A stretch of 64,000 bases of DNA, taken from the NCBI RefSeq assembly GCF_001767295.1, contig NZ_CP014944.1:3038001-3102000 (forward strand). The letters are read 5' to 3'. The notes beneath the pieces are model-generated. The model was not told the origin of the DNA and did no database searches. It worked only from the letters and a program-made list of their open reading frames with translations. Below, piece by piece: positions 13,104 to 18,190 of the stretch (positions are counted from its first letter, which is position 1; each line of letters opens with the position of its first letter). Source of the stretch: Colwellia sp. PAMC 20917 (lineage in GTDB: Bacteria > Pseudomonadota > Gammaproteobacteria > Enterobacterales > Alteromonadaceae). The position numbers and the translations under genes are program-made.

Positions 13104-13925
13104 TTAGCGTGTTTGTTCAAGCCACTGCTTTGGGGATATTCCCAGTTTTTTTCTAAATACCCGTGCTAATGCCGAGCCATTTTCATAACCAACGGCATTA
13201 GCCACTAATGCCACAGATTTATCTTGTTTTAGTAAGCCTTTAGCCACAACAATACGCCAATCAATTAAATAATCTCCTGGACTTTGACCAACAGTACATT
13301 TAAAAATATCTGCAAATTTTGAACGGGACATCATTGCAAGCTCAGACATTTCTTCTAAGCTCCACTGTTGCTGTGGCGTATTATGAATAGCTAATAATAC
13401 CCTCGAGACTTGAGGGTGGGCCAATCCTGCGAGTAATCCATGCTGCATAATATTATTATCGAGTACATGGCGAAGTACATGAATAAGAAAGATATTGGTT
13501 AACGAATTAATCATAGGAAGTCGTCCACATCGTTCGTGAAATGCTTCTTCGAATAACCAATCTGCAGTTTGTTTCAGTTTTTCGTCTTCGCCAAGTGTAA
13601 AGAACATTCTCGCAGGCAGAGCATTAGCGATGGGGTTAGAGGAGCTTTCGTTATAGATGATGTTAGCACAAACTAATTCAGGAGGATTATGCTCACTACC
13701 AATAATACGATGAGCATGAGGTGTTGGGAAAAATAACACGGTCGGTTCATTAATTAATTGAGGTTTACCCCGCTCATCAATCAGCGTTAACTCTCCACTG
13801 CGAAGTAAATGCAAGTGTCCCTGATTTTGCTCGCGATTAAAATGACTAATACCACATAAATTTCCGGTAAAGAAAACCTCAGTATTCATCGAAAAGCGTT
13901 GCAAAATGACTGAAAGTTGATCCAT
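13104..13925 (-). CDS. AraC-family regulator with cupin sensor, divergent from the bufferin cassette
   Basis: A 273-residue regulator. The N-terminal half resembles the cupin_6 sensor of AraC proteins (HLLRSGELTLID, then FFPTPHAHRII). The C-terminal half has two AraC helix-turn-helix units (WSLEEMSELAMMSRSKFADIFKCTVGQSPGDYL, then VALVANAVGYENGSALARVFRKKLGISPKQW). It is transcribed away from the YHS gene with 163 bases between the two starts, so it is the natural candidate to control the cassette. Conserved His residues in the cupin part could bind metal, but this is not shown by the sequence. Confidence 0.85.
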   Translation of the reverse strand: MDQLSVILQRFSMNTEVFFTGNLCGISHFNREQNQGHLHLLRSGELTLIDERGKPQLINEPTVLFFPTPHAHRIIGSEHNPPELVCANIIYNESSSNPIANALPARMFFTLGEDEKLKQTADWLFEEAFHERCGRLPMINSLTNIFLIHVLRHVLDNNIMQHGLLAGLAHPQVSRVLLAIHNTPQQQWSLEEMSELAMMSRSKFADIFKCTVGQSPGDYLIDWRIVVAKGLLKQDKSVALVANAVGYENGSALARVFRKKLGISPKQWLEQTR

Positions 13926-14088
13926 TTTATCTCTCTTTATACCTATTCTGGACGATTGGGTTCAAAGTTAGGACTATCTCATTCCTTTTAGGTAATTGAA
14001 AGGCCTATATTATCAACCAAGGAAACATCCTTATTAATAAACAAACCTTGAACATGACACAGTAAAAATTAAATACTGGAGCAAAAAA

Positions 14089-14574
14089 ATGAAAATTTCA
14101 ACATTGATAAAATCTACCTTCGCGACTTCTGCCTTATTAGTTAGCAGTTTAAGTTTTGCGGCGAATATTGAAGTAAATGCCAATGGCAATGATTTAGCGA
14201 TTAAAGGCTATGATACGGTATCTTATTTTACTAAAGGCTCACCAACGAAAGGCTCAGATCAATTCACTGCAGCTTACAACGGCGCTATTTACCAGTTTTC
14301 TACGGCAGATAATCGTGACCTTTTTAAATCTGAACCCAGTAAATATGCACCACAGTACGGTGGTTTCTGTGCTTTTGGCGTTACGATGAATAAAAAGTTT
14401 GATACCGATCCTATGGCCTGGCATATCCGTGGCGACAAATTATATTTAAACCTCAATAAAGACGTGCAAAAAAAATGGGTAACAGATATTCCGGGTTACA
14501 TTGAAACAGCTCAGACCAATTGGACCGATATTAAAGGCTTAACAGAAGCGCAAATTGAAAAAATTTACGACTAA
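14089..14574 (+). CDS. Secreted YHS-domain protein heading the bufferin cassette
   Basis: A 161-residue protein with a signal peptide (KSTFATSALLVSSLSFAAN). The mature protein carries a YHS domain: GYDTVSYFTKGSPTKGSDQF, then YNGAIYQFSTADNRDLF and the Cys-containing YAPQYGGFCAFGV. YHS domains occur in metal-handling proteins, including some copper and heavy-metal ATPases, where the Cys is metal-linked. The gene begins the plus-strand set thioredoxin - bufA1 - bufB - bufC - doxX, with 21 bases or so to the next gene. A periplasmic role in copper or other metal handling together with the RiPP is inferred from context. Confidence 0.88.
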   Translation: MKISTLIKSTFATSALLVSSLSFAANIEVNANGNDLAIKGYDTVSYFTKGSPTKGSDQFTAAYNGAIYQFSTADNRDLFKSEPSKYAPQYGGFCAFGVTMNKKFDTDPMAWHIRGDKLYLNLNKDVQKKWVTDIPGYIETAQTNWTDIKGLTEAQIEKIYD

Positions 14575-14598
14575 TATCCACCCATTAGGTAAGGCTTG

Positions 14599-14916
14599 AT
14601 GATGAAAAAACTAGCAATAGATGACTCAATTGATGATCTATTATCTCAGCATCAATATTCACTGTTATATTTTACTGCTTCATGGTGTGGGCCTTGTAAA
14701 ACAATGGCTCCCATCGTTGAGGAAGTCTCTGACCTGATGAAGAATAGATTTAACACGATTAAAATTGATGTCGATAGTATGGCAAGTGTAGCCGCTGATT
14801 ATGGTATACGTAGTGTACCAACGCTGATGTTGGTGAAAAATAAAGTAATTATGGATCAACGTGTAGGTGGGTTACCACCACAACAATTAATACAATGGTT
14901 AGAGCAACAAACCTAG
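14599..14916 (+). CDS. Thioredoxin-family protein
   Basis: A 105-residue single-domain thioredoxin with the redox motif WCGPCK (Cys30 and Cys33) and the cis-Pro motif SVPT near residue 75. There is no signal peptide, so it is cytoplasmic. ATG codons at 14599 and 14602 are both possible, served by AAGG just upstream; a TTG three bases earlier is less likely. The identity of WCGPCK points to a general disulfide reductase, and its place directly before bufA1 suggests it keeps precursor cysteines reduced for the modifying enzyme. That role is inferred. Confidence 0.88.
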   Translation: MMKKLAIDDSIDDLLSQHQYSLLYFTASWCGPCKTMAPIVEEVSDLMKNRFNTIKIDVDSMASVAADYGIRSVPTLMLVKNKVIMDQRVGGLPPQQLIQWLEQQT

Positions 14917-14946
14917 TTGCTCATTTAAACAATAATAGGATAAATC

Positions 14947-15231
14947 ATGAATAATAAATTATTAGTAAGTGCAGCACTAGCTGCAGTAATTTCGACAGGT
15001 ATTGTTGCACCAGCAGAAGCAGCAGATAAGAAAGAAAAATGTTATGGCGTAGCAAAAGCGGCACAAAATGATTGTGCAAATTTAGCGGGTACCCATTCAT
15101 GTGCCGGTCAGTCAAAGGTTGATAACGATAAGGGTGAATGGAAGCTAGTAACAAAAGGCACTTGCTCAACACTTGGCGGACTATCAAAAGCAGATGCTAA
15201 AAAACTTTATAAAGCAACGAAAGGCGCTTAA
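14947..15231 (+). CDS. bufA1: BufA1-type bufferin precursor (DUF2282)
   Basis: A 94-residue precursor with an N-terminal signal peptide (hydrophobic to about residue 22, cleavage likely after PAEA). The mature part has the four conserved cysteines of DUF2282: Cys32 in KCYG, Cys43 in DCAN, Cys52 in SCAG and Cys73 in TCS. DUF2282 members are bufferin precursors, RiPPs modified on Cys by an MNIO enzyme and reported to bind copper. The modifying enzyme bufB starts three bases after the stop and bufC follows, the classic order. The ATG has AGGA seven bases upstream. Which cysteines are modified here cannot be read from sequence. Confidence 0.92.
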   Translation: MNNKLLVSAALAAVISTGIVAPAEAADKKEKCYGVAKAAQNDCANLAGTHSCAGQSKVDNDKGEWKLVTKGTCSTLGGLSKADAKKLYKATKGA

Positions 15232-15234
15232 ATA

Positions 15235-16113
15235 ATGAGTATGTCGGTATTAAACAGTAATGTAATGATAGGCGTTGGTCTAAGGCACCCTCATTTTACC
15301 GACATATTAACTCAACCCAAACAGGTTGATTTTATTGAAGTACATTCGGAGAACTTTTTTGGTCAAGGCGGCGCTGCGTTATCTGTACTTAAACAAGTTA
15401 GAGAAAAATACCCAGTCAGTTTGCATTCAACGTCAATGGGGCTTGGCTCTGTACAGAATATTCCGCAGCATTACCTGGATCGTTTGAAAAAATTAACGGA
15501 AAATATTGACCCGTTTCTTATGTCTGAACATGCCTGTTTTACTTGGGGACAGCAACAAGGGCAAGTTATTCACAGTGGTGATCTGTTACCGATTGCCCAT
15601 ACTCAGCAGACGTTAGCCACGATGTGCGAACAAGTTGAAAAAGTACAAGATTTTTTAGGGCGGGAACTTATCATTGAAAATGTTTCTGCTTATATAAAGT
15701 TTGATGAAAGCCATCTTTCAGAGGCTGAATTTTTAGCGCAGCTCTATCAACGTACGGGGGCAAAAATATTGTTAGATATTAATAACATTGCCGTTAATAG
15801 TGTGAATTTTGATAACAGCGATATTCAGCAATCTATCACTGATTATATGAATGAATTACCCGTGGCGAGTGTGGCACAAATTCACTTAGCCGGTTGTAGC
15901 ATACCTTTGGTCGGAGAGTTGACCATTGATGATCATGCTTGCCCCGTTTCTGATGAAGTTTGGTTAGGCTATAAAAAAGCGCTAACCCGTTTTGGGGCAC
16001 TGCCGACACTTATTGAATGGGATAGCGACTTGCCCGAGTGGTCAGTACTGGTTGCTGAAGCTAAAAAAGCGCGTGATATTGCCGATGCGGTATTAGTGAG
16101 AAAGAGCACATGA
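15235..16113 (+). CDS. bufB: BufB, MNIO (DUF692) peptide-modifying enzyme
   Basis: A 292-residue DUF692 protein of the multinuclear non-heme iron-dependent oxidase family. Motifs are IGVGLRHPHF at the start, VDFIEVHSENFFG, the SLHSTSMGLG strand with a metal-ligand His, a SEHACFTW segment, LIIENVSAY, and LDINNIAVNS. A further IHLAGC segment and LIEWDSDLP follow near the end. MNIO enzymes oxidise cysteines of precursor peptides. Its substrate is plausibly BufA1, encoded three bases upstream. Its TGA overlaps the bufC ATG (ATGA), so translation is coupled. Length is typical (about 280-300). Confidence 0.93.
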   Translation: MSMSVLNSNVMIGVGLRHPHFTDILTQPKQVDFIEVHSENFFGQGGAALSVLKQVREKYPVSLHSTSMGLGSVQNIPQHYLDRLKKLTENIDPFLMSEHACFTWGQQQGQVIHSGDLLPIAHTQQTLATMCEQVEKVQDFLGRELIIENVSAYIKFDESHLSEAEFLAQLYQRTGAKILLDINNIAVNSVNFDNSDIQQSITDYMNELPVASVAQIHLAGCSIPLVGELTIDDHACPVSDEVWLGYKKALTRFGALPTLIEWDSDLPEWSVLVAEAKKARDIADAVLVRKST

Positions 16114-16937
16114 GTGAACAACCTGAAACTGAACTAAGCATTAATCAACCAGCTAGAAATGAGCCCAATAAAAGTCTTCAGCAAATATTGCTAGACGTTA
16201 TTTGGCATGAAGGTTCAACCGTTTTAGAACAATGTGGTTTTGATGCTAAAGGTATTAACATTTATCGACGAAACTTACTGGCTAACGCTCAACGAGCATT
16301 AACGATTAGTTTTCCAACAGTATTTGAATTGTTAGATAGTGATATTGGCGAAGACCTAGTTTATCAATTTTTAAGGAAATCGCCACCAGACCAAGGCGAC
16401 TGGGCTCTATGGGGAGAAAATTTTTCTCACTTTTTAGAAACAACAAAAATAGCTATGATTTATCCTTATATTTCTGATTGCTCTGCTCTAGATTGGCACA
16501 TTCATTGTGCATTAAATGGTCGTGATCAGACCTTGGTACAAACGTCATTGCAAGTGCTTGGTGAAAGTGAACCTAAGGATATTTTTATTGAATTTAATCA
16601 GAATGTGCGTGTGTTGAAAACAGCATTTCCATTAGAAGATATTTTTTATGCACACCATCATGAAGATGAACTTCAACGAAAAATGGCAATGAATAATGCA
16701 AAGCAAGCACTATCAGTAAAACCTTTAGAACAATTTGTGATGGTTTACCGTCCCGAATATCAGCCCAAAGTAACAACATTAACTATCAATGAAGGTCGTT
16801 TTATCAATGACTTACTGGCTGGTAAATCATTAGAACAAGCCCTTAATGCGGTTAATCATGACAACGAATTTTCATTTGAACAATGGCTGATTAGTGCTAT
16901 TGAACGTAACTTAATTTATTATTTTAAAGAGAAATAA
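16110..16937 (+). CDS. bufC: BufC (DUF2063), partner protein of the MNIO enzyme
   Basis: A 275-residue protein of the DUF2063 family. The N-terminal domain is recognisable from IYRRNLLANAQRALTISFPTVFELL, which matches the family pattern YRxNxxxxxxxxLxxxFPxxxxLL. In bufferin and related clusters this partner helps the MNIO enzyme recognise its precursor. Its start overlaps the bufB stop by four bases, and doxX begins two bases after its own stop. The central and C-terminal parts are divergent. No catalytic motif is seen. Confidence 0.88.
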   Translation: MSEQPETELSINQPARNEPNKSLQQILLDVIWHEGSTVLEQCGFDAKGINIYRRNLLANAQRALTISFPTVFELLDSDIGEDLVYQFLRKSPPDQGDWALWGENFSHFLETTKIAMIYPYISDCSALDWHIHCALNGRDQTLVQTSLQVLGESEPKDIFIEFNQNVRVLKTAFPLEDIFYAHHHEDELQRKMAMNNAKQALSVKPLEQFVMVYRPEYQPKVTTLTINEGRFINDLLAGKSLEQALNAVNHDNEFSFEQWLISAIERNLIYYFKEK

Positions 16938-16939
16938 CC

Positions 16940-17422
16940 ATGGATACTTTACAAAATCTATTTTTACAAACCAGCCTTTTTTATCGTAATGTTGCCAGTA
17001 AAATTAGTATGTTAGAACCCGTCGCATTGTTAGCTGCGCGTTTTTATGTTGCTTGGGCCTTTTTCGCCTCGGGATTAACAAAGCTCAGAGATTGGGAGAG
17101 TACACTGATGTTATTTGAATATGAATATCAAGTACCTGTATTACCGTTTGAATTAGCCGCTTATTTAGGTACCGGTGCAGAAATTATTTTACCCTTGTTA
17201 TTAATGGCTGGATTAGCGAGTCGATTTTCTGCTTTAGGTTTGTTTTTTGTTAATATTGTTGCTGTGATAAGTTTAGAAGATATTGCGCCAGTTGCTTATG
17301 CTGAACATGTATTATGGGGAGTATTACTCGCATTGGTTGTTATCTTTAATGGTGGGCGTTTTGCGTTAGACCGACTCGTTGAAAAACAGTTATTCAATGG
17401 CAAAGTTTCAACAGTCTCATAG
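16940..17422 (+). CDS. DoxX-family membrane protein
   Basis: A 160-residue protein with four predicted membrane helices. The DoxX start is clear: LAARFYVAWAFFASGLTKLRDW, then YLGTGAEIILPLLLMAGLASRFSALGLF and a final helix before the basic tail. DoxX proteins commonly close bufferin and other MNIO clusters. They are thought to act in thiol or redox balance at the membrane, but no biochemical role is settled here. It starts two bases after bufC, so it belongs to the same transcript. Confidence 0.88.
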   Translation: MDTLQNLFLQTSLFYRNVASKISMLEPVALLAARFYVAWAFFASGLTKLRDWESTLMLFEYEYQVPVLPFELAAYLGTGAEIILPLLLMAGLASRFSALGLFFVNIVAVISLEDIAPVAYAEHVLWGVLLALVVIFNGGRFALDRLVEKQLFNGKVSTVS

Positions 17423-17476: not shown

Positions 17477-18190
17477 ATGACGATACCTATTCCTCATTGC
17501 CCGAGCCGCTTCCTTCTCGGTGATGCAGCGGCACTCATTACTCTTGATGCTTTTATTGATATTCAATGCCCACATTCTCGCACTACCTGGCCAACGTTAC
17601 TGGCAGTGTCTGAACATTATAAAGATAAGCCTGTTAGTCTTAGAGTGCATTTAATCACCCTGAGTAATCACCGACAGGCTTGGGATATGAGTTTAGGGCT
17701 ATTTGCATTAGCACAGGATGTCGCCAGTAAGCTTATGATTTAAAATCATTTATATTTGAGCGACAAGCAAAATTTTATAATGATAAGTTTTTACATAAGT
17801 CTCACTATGATTTAATTCAATTGATTGATCACTGGTATGCAGATGAACCGACTCAGTCAGGTGGGAAGAATTCAGGTCCAGATCCCTATGAACATTTACT
17901 TGCTGCTTTAGGCACTTGCACGGCAATGACCATTCGTGTGTATGCCGACCATAAAAAAATACCGCTTCAGCACGATGAAGTTTCTTTATCCCACGAGCGT
18001 CATTATTTAAATGATGTAGACAAAGCGTCAGAGCATGATCAAAAGATAGAATCATTACTCCACAAAGTTCAGTTGTTTGGGCTGTTAAGTGATAATGAAA
18101 AAAACGATTAATGGAAATAGCTGACCGTTGTCCTGTGCATCGAACATTGCACAATAATCCGCAAATATTAACGGTATTGATTGATGGTTA
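17477..18190 (+). pseudogene. Decayed DsbA-like / OsmC-like hybrid
   Basis: The first 88 codons (17477-17743) encode the N-terminus of a DsbA-like thioredoxin-fold protein with a CPHS active-site motif (FIDIQCPHSRTTW) and then stop. The next frame continues that domain ([18 protein letters not shown]) and at about 17815 runs without a break into the middle of an OsmC-like protein ([38 protein letters not shown]). It stops at 18111, but a third frame carries the expected OsmC end ([15 protein letters not shown]) to about 18190. One extra base near 17728 and one in the A-run at 18088-18094 would restore a single frame. The OsmC N-terminus and DsbA C-terminus are both missing, so a deletion fusion is likely. 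Confidence 0.7.

Follow-up and report, generated by a model that had tools for sequence, protein, structure and literature searches.

A bufferin cluster of Colwellia sp. PAMC 20917 joined to a divergent AraC regulator, a single-cysteine YHS protein and a probable shared operator

The present study concerns a locus of Colwellia sp. PAMC 20917 in which the genes of a bufferin cluster stand together with those of an exported YHS-domain protein, a thioredoxin and a divergent regulator of the AraC family. The locus occupies positions 13104–17422 of a stretch of 64,000 nucleotides (NZ_CP014944.1, 3,038,001–3,102,000), here called the window, to which coordinates given without a locus number refer. 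The seven genes that a preliminary description had placed there are all present, and their families are borne out by Pfam and NCBIfam profiles scored with curated cut-offs. The regulator gene (13104–13925) lies on the minus strand, and its product has a Cupin_6 sensor domain (Pfam, 78.6 bits) and matches HTH_18 (61.9 bits) and also HTH_AraC. The plus strand carries the other six genes, beginning with that of the exported YHS protein (14089–14574), which is matched by Pfam YHS (31.1 bits, cut-off 30.3) and, like the members of the NF041384 family of YHS proteins and selenoproteins, scores well with that model (156.2, cut-off 70). It is followed by a thioredoxin with the motif WCGPC (14596–14916; Pfam Thioredoxin, 82.3 bits), the bufferin precursor BufA1 (14947–15231; DUF2282, 84.2 bits), the MNIO enzyme BufB (15235–16113; MbnB_TglH_ChrH, 299.7 bits), its DUF2063 partner BufC (16110–16937; PF09836, 44.9 bits, cut-off 27.2) and an HvfX-like DoxX membrane protein (16940–17422; PF07681, 58.2 bits, cut-off 23.6; NF050144, 52.1 bits, under its cut-off of 80). 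As these six genes share one strand and are separated by 21, 30, 3, −4 and 2 bases, they probably constitute a single operon.

The preliminary description took the precursor, the MNIO enzyme, the DUF2063 protein and DoxX for a bufferin unit, and by gene content the core is indeed a bufferin-1 cluster. BufA1 carries four cysteines (Cys32, 43, 52 and 73) and a Sec-like export signal judged from the sequence alone, BufB passes the curated model NF050167 (315.7 bits, cut-off 310), and the DUF2063 and DoxX genes share the operon as judged by strand and gaps. In all these respects the locus resembles the bufferin-1 clusters of PMC12452194, which have the same four core genes; it differs from them in the AraC regulator with its operator-like site and in the two extra genes joined on. 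That paper describes bufferins as copper chelators that help growth under copper stress. The four Cys columns are filled in 82 of 82 aligned precursors of YHS-bearing loci, several genomes being counted twice in this alignment. A profile search of the Colwellia genome gives a single MNIO gene, which is the bufB of this locus, and one match each for DUF2282, the NF041384 YHS family and Cupin_6.

The wider neighbourhood is retained in relatives. A family survey covered 147 sampled genomes, of which 47 have DUF2282, at 55 places. The 54 places besides that of the window were retrieved, and 53 of these loci were assessable, L056, on a contig of 3.7 kb, having given no bufA open reading frame (ORF). 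A YHS gene stands directly upstream of bufA on the same strand in 33 of the 53, with a thioredoxin between the two in 17. An AraC regulator of this type (>300 bits) occurs in the retrieved stretch of 26 of the 33 loci with YHS, versus 0 of the 20 without it, among which at least three (L035, L043, L071) end at a contig edge less than 400 bp upstream of bufA, where YHS could be missed. The regulator is divergent and adjacent to YHS in 20 of the family loci. YHS genes away from bufferin have such a regulator rarely: among 40 sampled, two have an adjacent and divergent but distant AraC (L122, L123), and L125, the only third case, has one 2.7 kb away. Three further divergent pairs of a Cupin_6 AraC and a YHS gene, with distant YHS proteins, are found in genome G047 (L235, L238, L241).

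An order-wide sample of 394 genomes yielded 47 YHS places of at least 220 bits, that of the window included; 26 adjoin DUF2282, 19 lie in genomes with DUF2282 elsewhere and two in genomes without it. Class-wide, DUF2282 is present in 97 of 369 genomes and this type of YHS (E ≤ 1e-50) in only five, and for this reason the YHS/AraC module is a lineage-limited variant of bufferin clusters. Loci of named organisms were taken as the best 80 of 590 confirmed, and it is among these that the following genera were seen. The module occurs in Colwellia, Moritella, Psychromonas, Motiliproteus, Marinobacter, Cellvibrionaceae and Parendozoicomonas; in Methylophaga it is present with no AraC in the stretch; Erythrobacter and Glaciecola relatives have YHS next to bufferin and likewise no such AraC in the stretch. 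The YHS protein has its closest named relatives in an uncultured Colwellia (83% identical) and in Moritella dasanensis (81%). The genome survey that the preliminary description had called for, to decide whether the YHS and AraC genes belong with the cassette or are random neighbours, thus speaks for retained neighbours, and the module of AraC, YHS and bufferin is real, retained and probably co-regulated. That such a six-gene module with its own regulator is undescribed, as had been supposed, agrees with the literature: no description was found among open-licence papers, supplements lying outside the search.

Some relatives depart from the bufferin core of the window. Two bufA genes stand in tandem in Psychromonas modules (L131:7955–8820 and L132:7957–8825). 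At L042:6509–6974 short remnants of the MNIO and DUF2063 genes follow bufA, and an intact copy lies about 16 kb off on the same contig (L041). The module at L047:6395–7307 has neither gene between bufA and doxX; its genome (G030) has a second locus with both (L076), and the L047 precursor may be modified in trans.

Between the divergent regulator and YHS genes lies a site at 13947–13979 (plus strand) that is probably the operator common to the regulator and the operon. It is a direct repeat with GGAC half-sites at 13950–13953 and 13971–13974, which are 21 bp apart, about two helical turns. An expectation-maximisation motif search on 39 non-redundant AraC-YHS intergenic regions, of 49 collected, gave a 24-mer with a log-likelihood of 419 versus 71–80 in six shuffles (12-mer, 192 versus 27–34; 18-mer, 278 versus 49–54), the shuffles keeping base composition but not dinucleotides and being run from 25 random starts versus 80 for the real set. 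A 33-bp matrix was then built from 24 distinct divergent sites, each with at least 14 of 17 consensus matches; scores are rounded to one decimal. The window site, itself in the training set, scores 46.6 versus 5.3 for the next best place in the window. Over 173 loci (2.08 Mb) the matrix gives 52 matches of at least 15.0 bits, 22 of them outside the training loci; the reversed matrix reaches 15 nowhere, 14 once and 12 four times. Of these 22, L076, L138, L145 and L151 belong to the discovery set but not to the matrix, one site inside a DUF2063 gene, on the single contig that L049 and L190 represent, reaches 15.0 only by rounding up, and the others include places that had served in neither set.

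The score of 15 is reached by 34 of 48 divergent AraC-YHS loci, a class that holds the training loci, by one of the 20 bufA loci without YHS (L034, before lpxR) and by two of 72 other YHS loci, which are one contig. Where the AraC gene lies elsewhere, matrix sites still stand before YHS at L041, L044 (= L142), L045, L046, L095 (= L137) and L134, with near-threshold sites, before YHS and with the regulator elsewhere, at L033 (14.8) and L163 (14.9). Matrix sites are also found before a separated doxX at L044 (= L142), L045 and L046. As a consistency test, 13 divergent AraC-YHS regions on contigs not used before, contained in 19 later loci, were scored, and eight reach 15 (L209, L210, L211, L216, L218, L220, L223, L224). 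In the Colwellia genome the exact 25-mer occurs at one place, with no other place within 3 mismatches; a degenerate pattern finds one more 3-mismatch match, equal to its control. Across 48 family genomes, the degenerate pattern with at most 2 mismatches gives 22 matches, of which 21 coincide with a module or AraC-YHS pair; the remaining one precedes pagL in G084. At 3 mismatches the pattern does no better than its reversed control. A 3-mismatch match of similar sequence is common to G000, G025, G101 and G095 and may be conserved coding sequence.

In an alignment of 14 regions, conservation runs on from the operator through a block at 13980–14033 of the plus strand into the leader of YHS. This block holds TATATT (14006–14011), which is likely the −10 element, and a consensus promoter scan found no plus-strand site between the operator and YHS. 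It also holds a hairpin-like sequence, AAGGA-AACA-TCCTT (14019–14032), which is kept in several relatives and replaced by a different sequence in Psychromonas-like ones. Two further observations concern operator-like sites. Beside the module of L045, an ORF of 196 amino acids with no Pfam match (L045:3991–4581) has its own site (17.6 bits) about 70 bp upstream; at L209:4425–4897 the YHS gene of an AraC-YHS pair is split into two ORFs, and the operator is still present.

The operator is also found before genes for lipid A deacylases, first before pagL in G084 and lpxR in G048. A survey was therefore restricted to 49 genomes chosen from those with the module or the pair, of which 25 have PagL and 15 LpxR; 53 deacylase loci were scanned, and three further PagL places had no locus. 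Five of the 53 score at least 12, the other 48 have no such site, and the reversed matrix gives none. Two sites lie upstream of pagL on its strand (L247, 31.9, = L208:4226; L248:1171, 22.9) and two upstream of lpxR (L277:1211, 21.6; L278, 27.6, = L034:4012), making four genomes in all; L247 and L278 are the two already noticed before the survey. In G067 the remaining score (L270) comes from the YHS site, pagL being placed there between the AraC and YHS genes. In G019 and G125, a pagL is located no more than about 0.6 kb from where the module's DUF2063 gene ends. An operator before a lipid A deacylase is a recurring but minority feature, and neither PagL nor LpxR was found in the genome of the window.

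The best named NCBIfam match of the regulator is RclR (82.3 bits). According to passages of PMC7464077, Escherichia coli RclR becomes active once Cys21 and Cys89 are oxidised. As at the E. coli locus of RclR and rclABC, a divergent Cupin_6 AraC stands beside stress genes; of the two conserved Cys in its sensor domain, the second, Cys86, falls on RclR Cys89 and the first, Cys24, three columns away from Cys21. In 38 homologues aligned with RclR, a Cys occupies the column of Cys24 in 34 and that of Cys86 in 35. Both are invariant in 19 module AraCs picked one per locus, and so are three histidines, His37, His39 and His72. In 39 AraCs of the named loci, a set that omits partial and low-scoring copies, Cys86, His39 and His72 are invariant and Cys24 is kept in at least 90%. 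Within five genomes, all 5 module-type Cupin_6 proteins have both Cys; of 10 other alignable ones, 3 have the first and 9 the second, L237 and L243 being left out of this comparison. The predicted structure of the regulator has a mean predicted local distance difference test score (pLDDT) of 90.4; its best structural neighbours in the PDB are ToxT and Rns, some with fatty acids bound, at template modelling scores (TM-scores) of about 0.4. Because RclR responds to Cys oxidation and a Haemophilus influenzae cluster of MNIO, DUF2063 and DoxX genes is induced by hypochlorous acid (HOCl), thiol oxidation would be the leading trigger of the regulator, with copper as its main rival.

The preliminary description had suggested that the YHS protein may be a second periplasmic metal binder working with the modified peptide, a view that the sequences do not support. 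Multi-Cys metal-binding domains of the YHS/TRASH type use several Cys ligands. Here a single Cys is found in all of 77 bufferin-linked and 55 other proteins (132 of 132; proteins >150 bits, counted from about residue 38 on), and an alignment of 52 YHS proteins shows Cys94 as invariant and no invariant His. One Cys and no invariant His disfavour a classical multi-ligand metal site, and with the occurrence of the protein in the absence of bufferin they led us to reject a metal-binding partner of BufA1 as the leading reading. The export signal of the protein is judged from sequence. Its predicted structure has a mean pLDDT of 90.2, and Foldseek gives no match to the PDB at E ≤ 0.001; a search by sequence yields, at E < 0.001, nothing but short segments of two ciliary proteins (9fqr, 9d2f), and, weakly and at E of about 0.09, subunits of toluene/o-xylene monooxygenase. 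We know of no function for the NF041384 family. Selenoprotein YHS members are listed in the survey passages of PMC9312934 and PMC2398784, and the former states that most uncharacterised selenoproteins very likely have redox functions; on these grounds a redox role is the better guess for the YHS protein. Unlike the selenoprotein members, the YHS genes of the loci scanned have no stop (selenocysteine) codon at the Cys site.

Moreover, YHS and its regulator occur without bufferin. Among the named loci, divergent AraC-YHS pairs with no bufferin genes in the stretch are seen in Psychromonas B3M02, Pseudoalteromonas, an Oceanospirillaceae genome, Photobacterium and Vibrio, and also in Marinagarivorans, Thalassospira, a Rhodovibrionaceae genome and Roseateles. 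Of these, the pairs in Vibrio and Photobacterium show no strong match to this operator. Two genomes, G235 and G300, have the pair and the operator (42.6 and 39.8 bits) with no DUF2282 match in the genome, the G235 site being the same as that of training locus L133. On an unrooted and poorly resolved YHS tree, with 41 of 112 forks open, the bufferin label changes 9 times and the AraC label 11 times. Psychromonas B3M02 (L133) is nested among bufferin-bearing Psychromonas, and this position, alone on the tree, suggests that bufferin was lost and the AraC-YHS pair kept. As the pairs exist without bufferin, two of them in genomes without DUF2282, YHS is not merely a bufferin accessory, and AraC-YHS is probably a separate stress system that recruited bufferin.

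The link of the thioredoxin is looser. The gene is listed from a TTG start, an ATG following at 14602, and the window copy has no evident signal peptide. All 44 thioredoxins counted at YHS-bufA loci have the motif WCxxC; at 16 of the 33 family loci with YHS, a thioredoxin gene was not detected between YHS and bufA. It is a possible reductant for the precursor, and could, alone among these genes, be a weakly linked passenger. The association recurs at another position in Marinobacter, since there the thioredoxin gene follows doxX instead of lying between YHS and bufA (L147:10046–10390, L150:9994–10332).

Taken together, the locus is best read as an envelope-stress operon answering oxidants or copper under its own AraC switch, with bufferin as a recruited part, and we consider this reading moderately probable. 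It builds on features computed here: gene content and layout, the retained order, the operator-like site before YHS or a separated doxX, and the bufferin-less AraC-YHS pairs. We infer that this AraC binds the site and that it activates rather than represses, and likewise the signal, the modification of the peptide, its capture of copper and the parts played by YHS, thioredoxin and DoxX. The sensor domain would be triggered, most likely by oxidation of Cys24 and Cys86 by an oxidant or by a thiol-reactive metal such as copper. This AraC would then bind the direct repeat at 13947–13979, with its 21-bp spacing, and activate the YHS promoter, so that YHS, thioredoxin, BufA1, BufB, BufC and DoxX are made together. 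BufB and BufC would turn the central Cys of BufA1 into heterocycles that bind copper, the thiooxazoles of known bufferins, before the peptide is exported, and the cytoplasmic thioredoxin would probably keep the Cys of BufA1 or of the switch reduced. DoxX and YHS are expected to act at or outside the inner membrane, YHS responding to the same stress in its own right, probably as a thiol-redox effector, and not as a bufferin accessory.

A number of results weigh against this proposal. The kinship with RclR is remote: the score of 82.3 bits is far below the family cut-off of 400, BLASTP gives 23% identity over 240 residues, and Cys24 stands three columns off RclR Cys21 in the alignment. Membership of the RclR family is ruled out by this score and identity, and RclR is kept as a possible mode of action. 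RclR controls rclA, rclB and rclC, whereas here YHS and the bufferin operon stand opposite the regulator; a parallel between DoxX and RclC was also dropped (hhalign probability of 1.1%, no detectable kinship), and the E. coli rcl locus has no matrix site above background. The choice of one AraC per locus in the set of 19 omitted tandem second copies, and those beside the modules of L042 (11452–12309) and L045 (11325–12134), as well as a second AraC of G053 (L239:1108–1953), are without both sensor Cys; such copies are possibly a non-redox partner. As to the operator, 14 of the 48 divergent AraC-YHS loci remain below 15 (L122, L147, L148, L150, L154–L156, L158–L162, L164, L168), the YHS-bufA loci without a divergent adjacent AraC reach it in only 7 of 33 (two being one contig), and 5 of the 13 new divergent regions fall short (L213, L214, L215 at 12.8, L225, L226), training and test loci being related and not independent. 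The promoter scan gives 7 sites, fewer than in shuffles (13.1), and locus L047 is without MNIO and bufC.

A rather unlikely explanation is that the locus is a copper-specific cassette, in which the AraC senses copper (or gold or silver) through Cys24, Cys86 and His37/His39/His72 and the operon, YHS included, only buffers copper. The copper chelation by bufferins (PMC12452194) fits it, and so does the invariance of all five residues in the 19 chosen module AraCs and of His39, His72 and Cys86 in the 39. According to passages of PMC13097082, excess copper and gold induce such pathways elsewhere, but so does oxidative stress. However, YHS, with one Cys and no invariant His, offers no metal motif of several ligands, two genomes that lack DUF2282 still keep an AraC-YHS pair, and an operator before lipid A deacylases in some relatives points to a scope wider than copper buffering. 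In addition, H. influenzae runs a related cluster by an HOCl-responsive sigma factor, and a Microbulbifer MNIO cluster, of another type, went undetected in the proteome under copper, as reported in passages of PMC12538549.

The regulator could also be a generic Cupin_6 AraC answering a small organic ligand or lipid, the stress link being accidental and YHS, thioredoxin and bufferin being co-expressed for another purpose. ToxT and Rns as nearest PDB structures, some with bound fatty acids, would suit this idea, and the second Cys, present in 9 of 10 other Cupin_6 proteins, is a family trait; the first, however, is kept in 5 of 5 module-type proteins versus 3 of 10 others, and the TM-scores are only about 0.4. 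We regard the idea as improbable. Chance clustering, with YHS, thioredoxin and AraC as passengers among unrelated stress genes, could be read from the bufferin operons without YHS in 20 of 53 family loci (three ending at a contig edge just upstream) and from the class-wide rarity of this YHS, in 5 genomes against 97 of 369 with DUF2282. Yet gene order is retained in many genera and comes with a shared operator-like site, and we regard chance as very improbable.

A broader form of the stress-operon reading, which we put forward as a tentative idea short of an even chance, is that a two-Cys Cupin_6 AraC and an exported YHS protein with one Cys make up a two-gene system, widespread and undescribed, for oxidant or metal stress of the envelope, whose operator has come to control bufferin, doxX and, in some lineages, pagL and lpxR in many marine Gammaproteobacteria. 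If so, bufferin would be a single arm recruited into a thiol-sensing regulon, and YHS would be a periplasmic redox effector of a new kind.

Known systems offer partial parallels. According to passages of PMC12452194, published bufferin clusters come with sigma factor/NrsF genes, other conserved genes being extremely rare in them; its main text has no mention of 'YHS', 'thioredoxin' or 'regulator'. Passages of PMC13097082 mention transcriptional regulators and leave them unnamed, and the main text of PMC12538549 has no mention of YHS, thioredoxin, AraC or regulators. The H. influenzae cluster, HvfABCX/DoxX, resembles the present one in uniting MNIO (COG3220/UPF0276), DUF2063 and DoxX with a periplasmic protein, and is induced by HOCl through RpoE2 (passages of PMC7907618). 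Unlike this locus, it is under an extracytoplasmic function (ECF) sigma factor, with no YHS, thioredoxin or AraC gene named in those passages. New here are the probable operator, the finding that AraC-YHS does not depend on bufferin, the arguments against metal binding by YHS and the occasional link to lipid A deacylases. A bufferin cluster thereby gains a candidate regulator and an exact operator, and inducers outside the sigma-factor systems become directly testable. An uncharacterised exported YHS family, with known selenoprotein members, is tied to the same stress and set apart from the peptide. Bufferin and DoxX are also predicted to be under shared control, which in some relatives would extend to lipid A deacylation.

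Directly 3′ of doxX, the window holds at 17477–18111 a DsbA-like piece of 88 amino acids and an OsmC-like piece of 96 amino acids (Pfam), which look decayed. Fuller kin of these pieces are a 192-amino-acid Thioredoxin_4/DSBA protein encoded right after doxX at L051 and a 404-amino-acid hydrolase-OsmC protein at L047.

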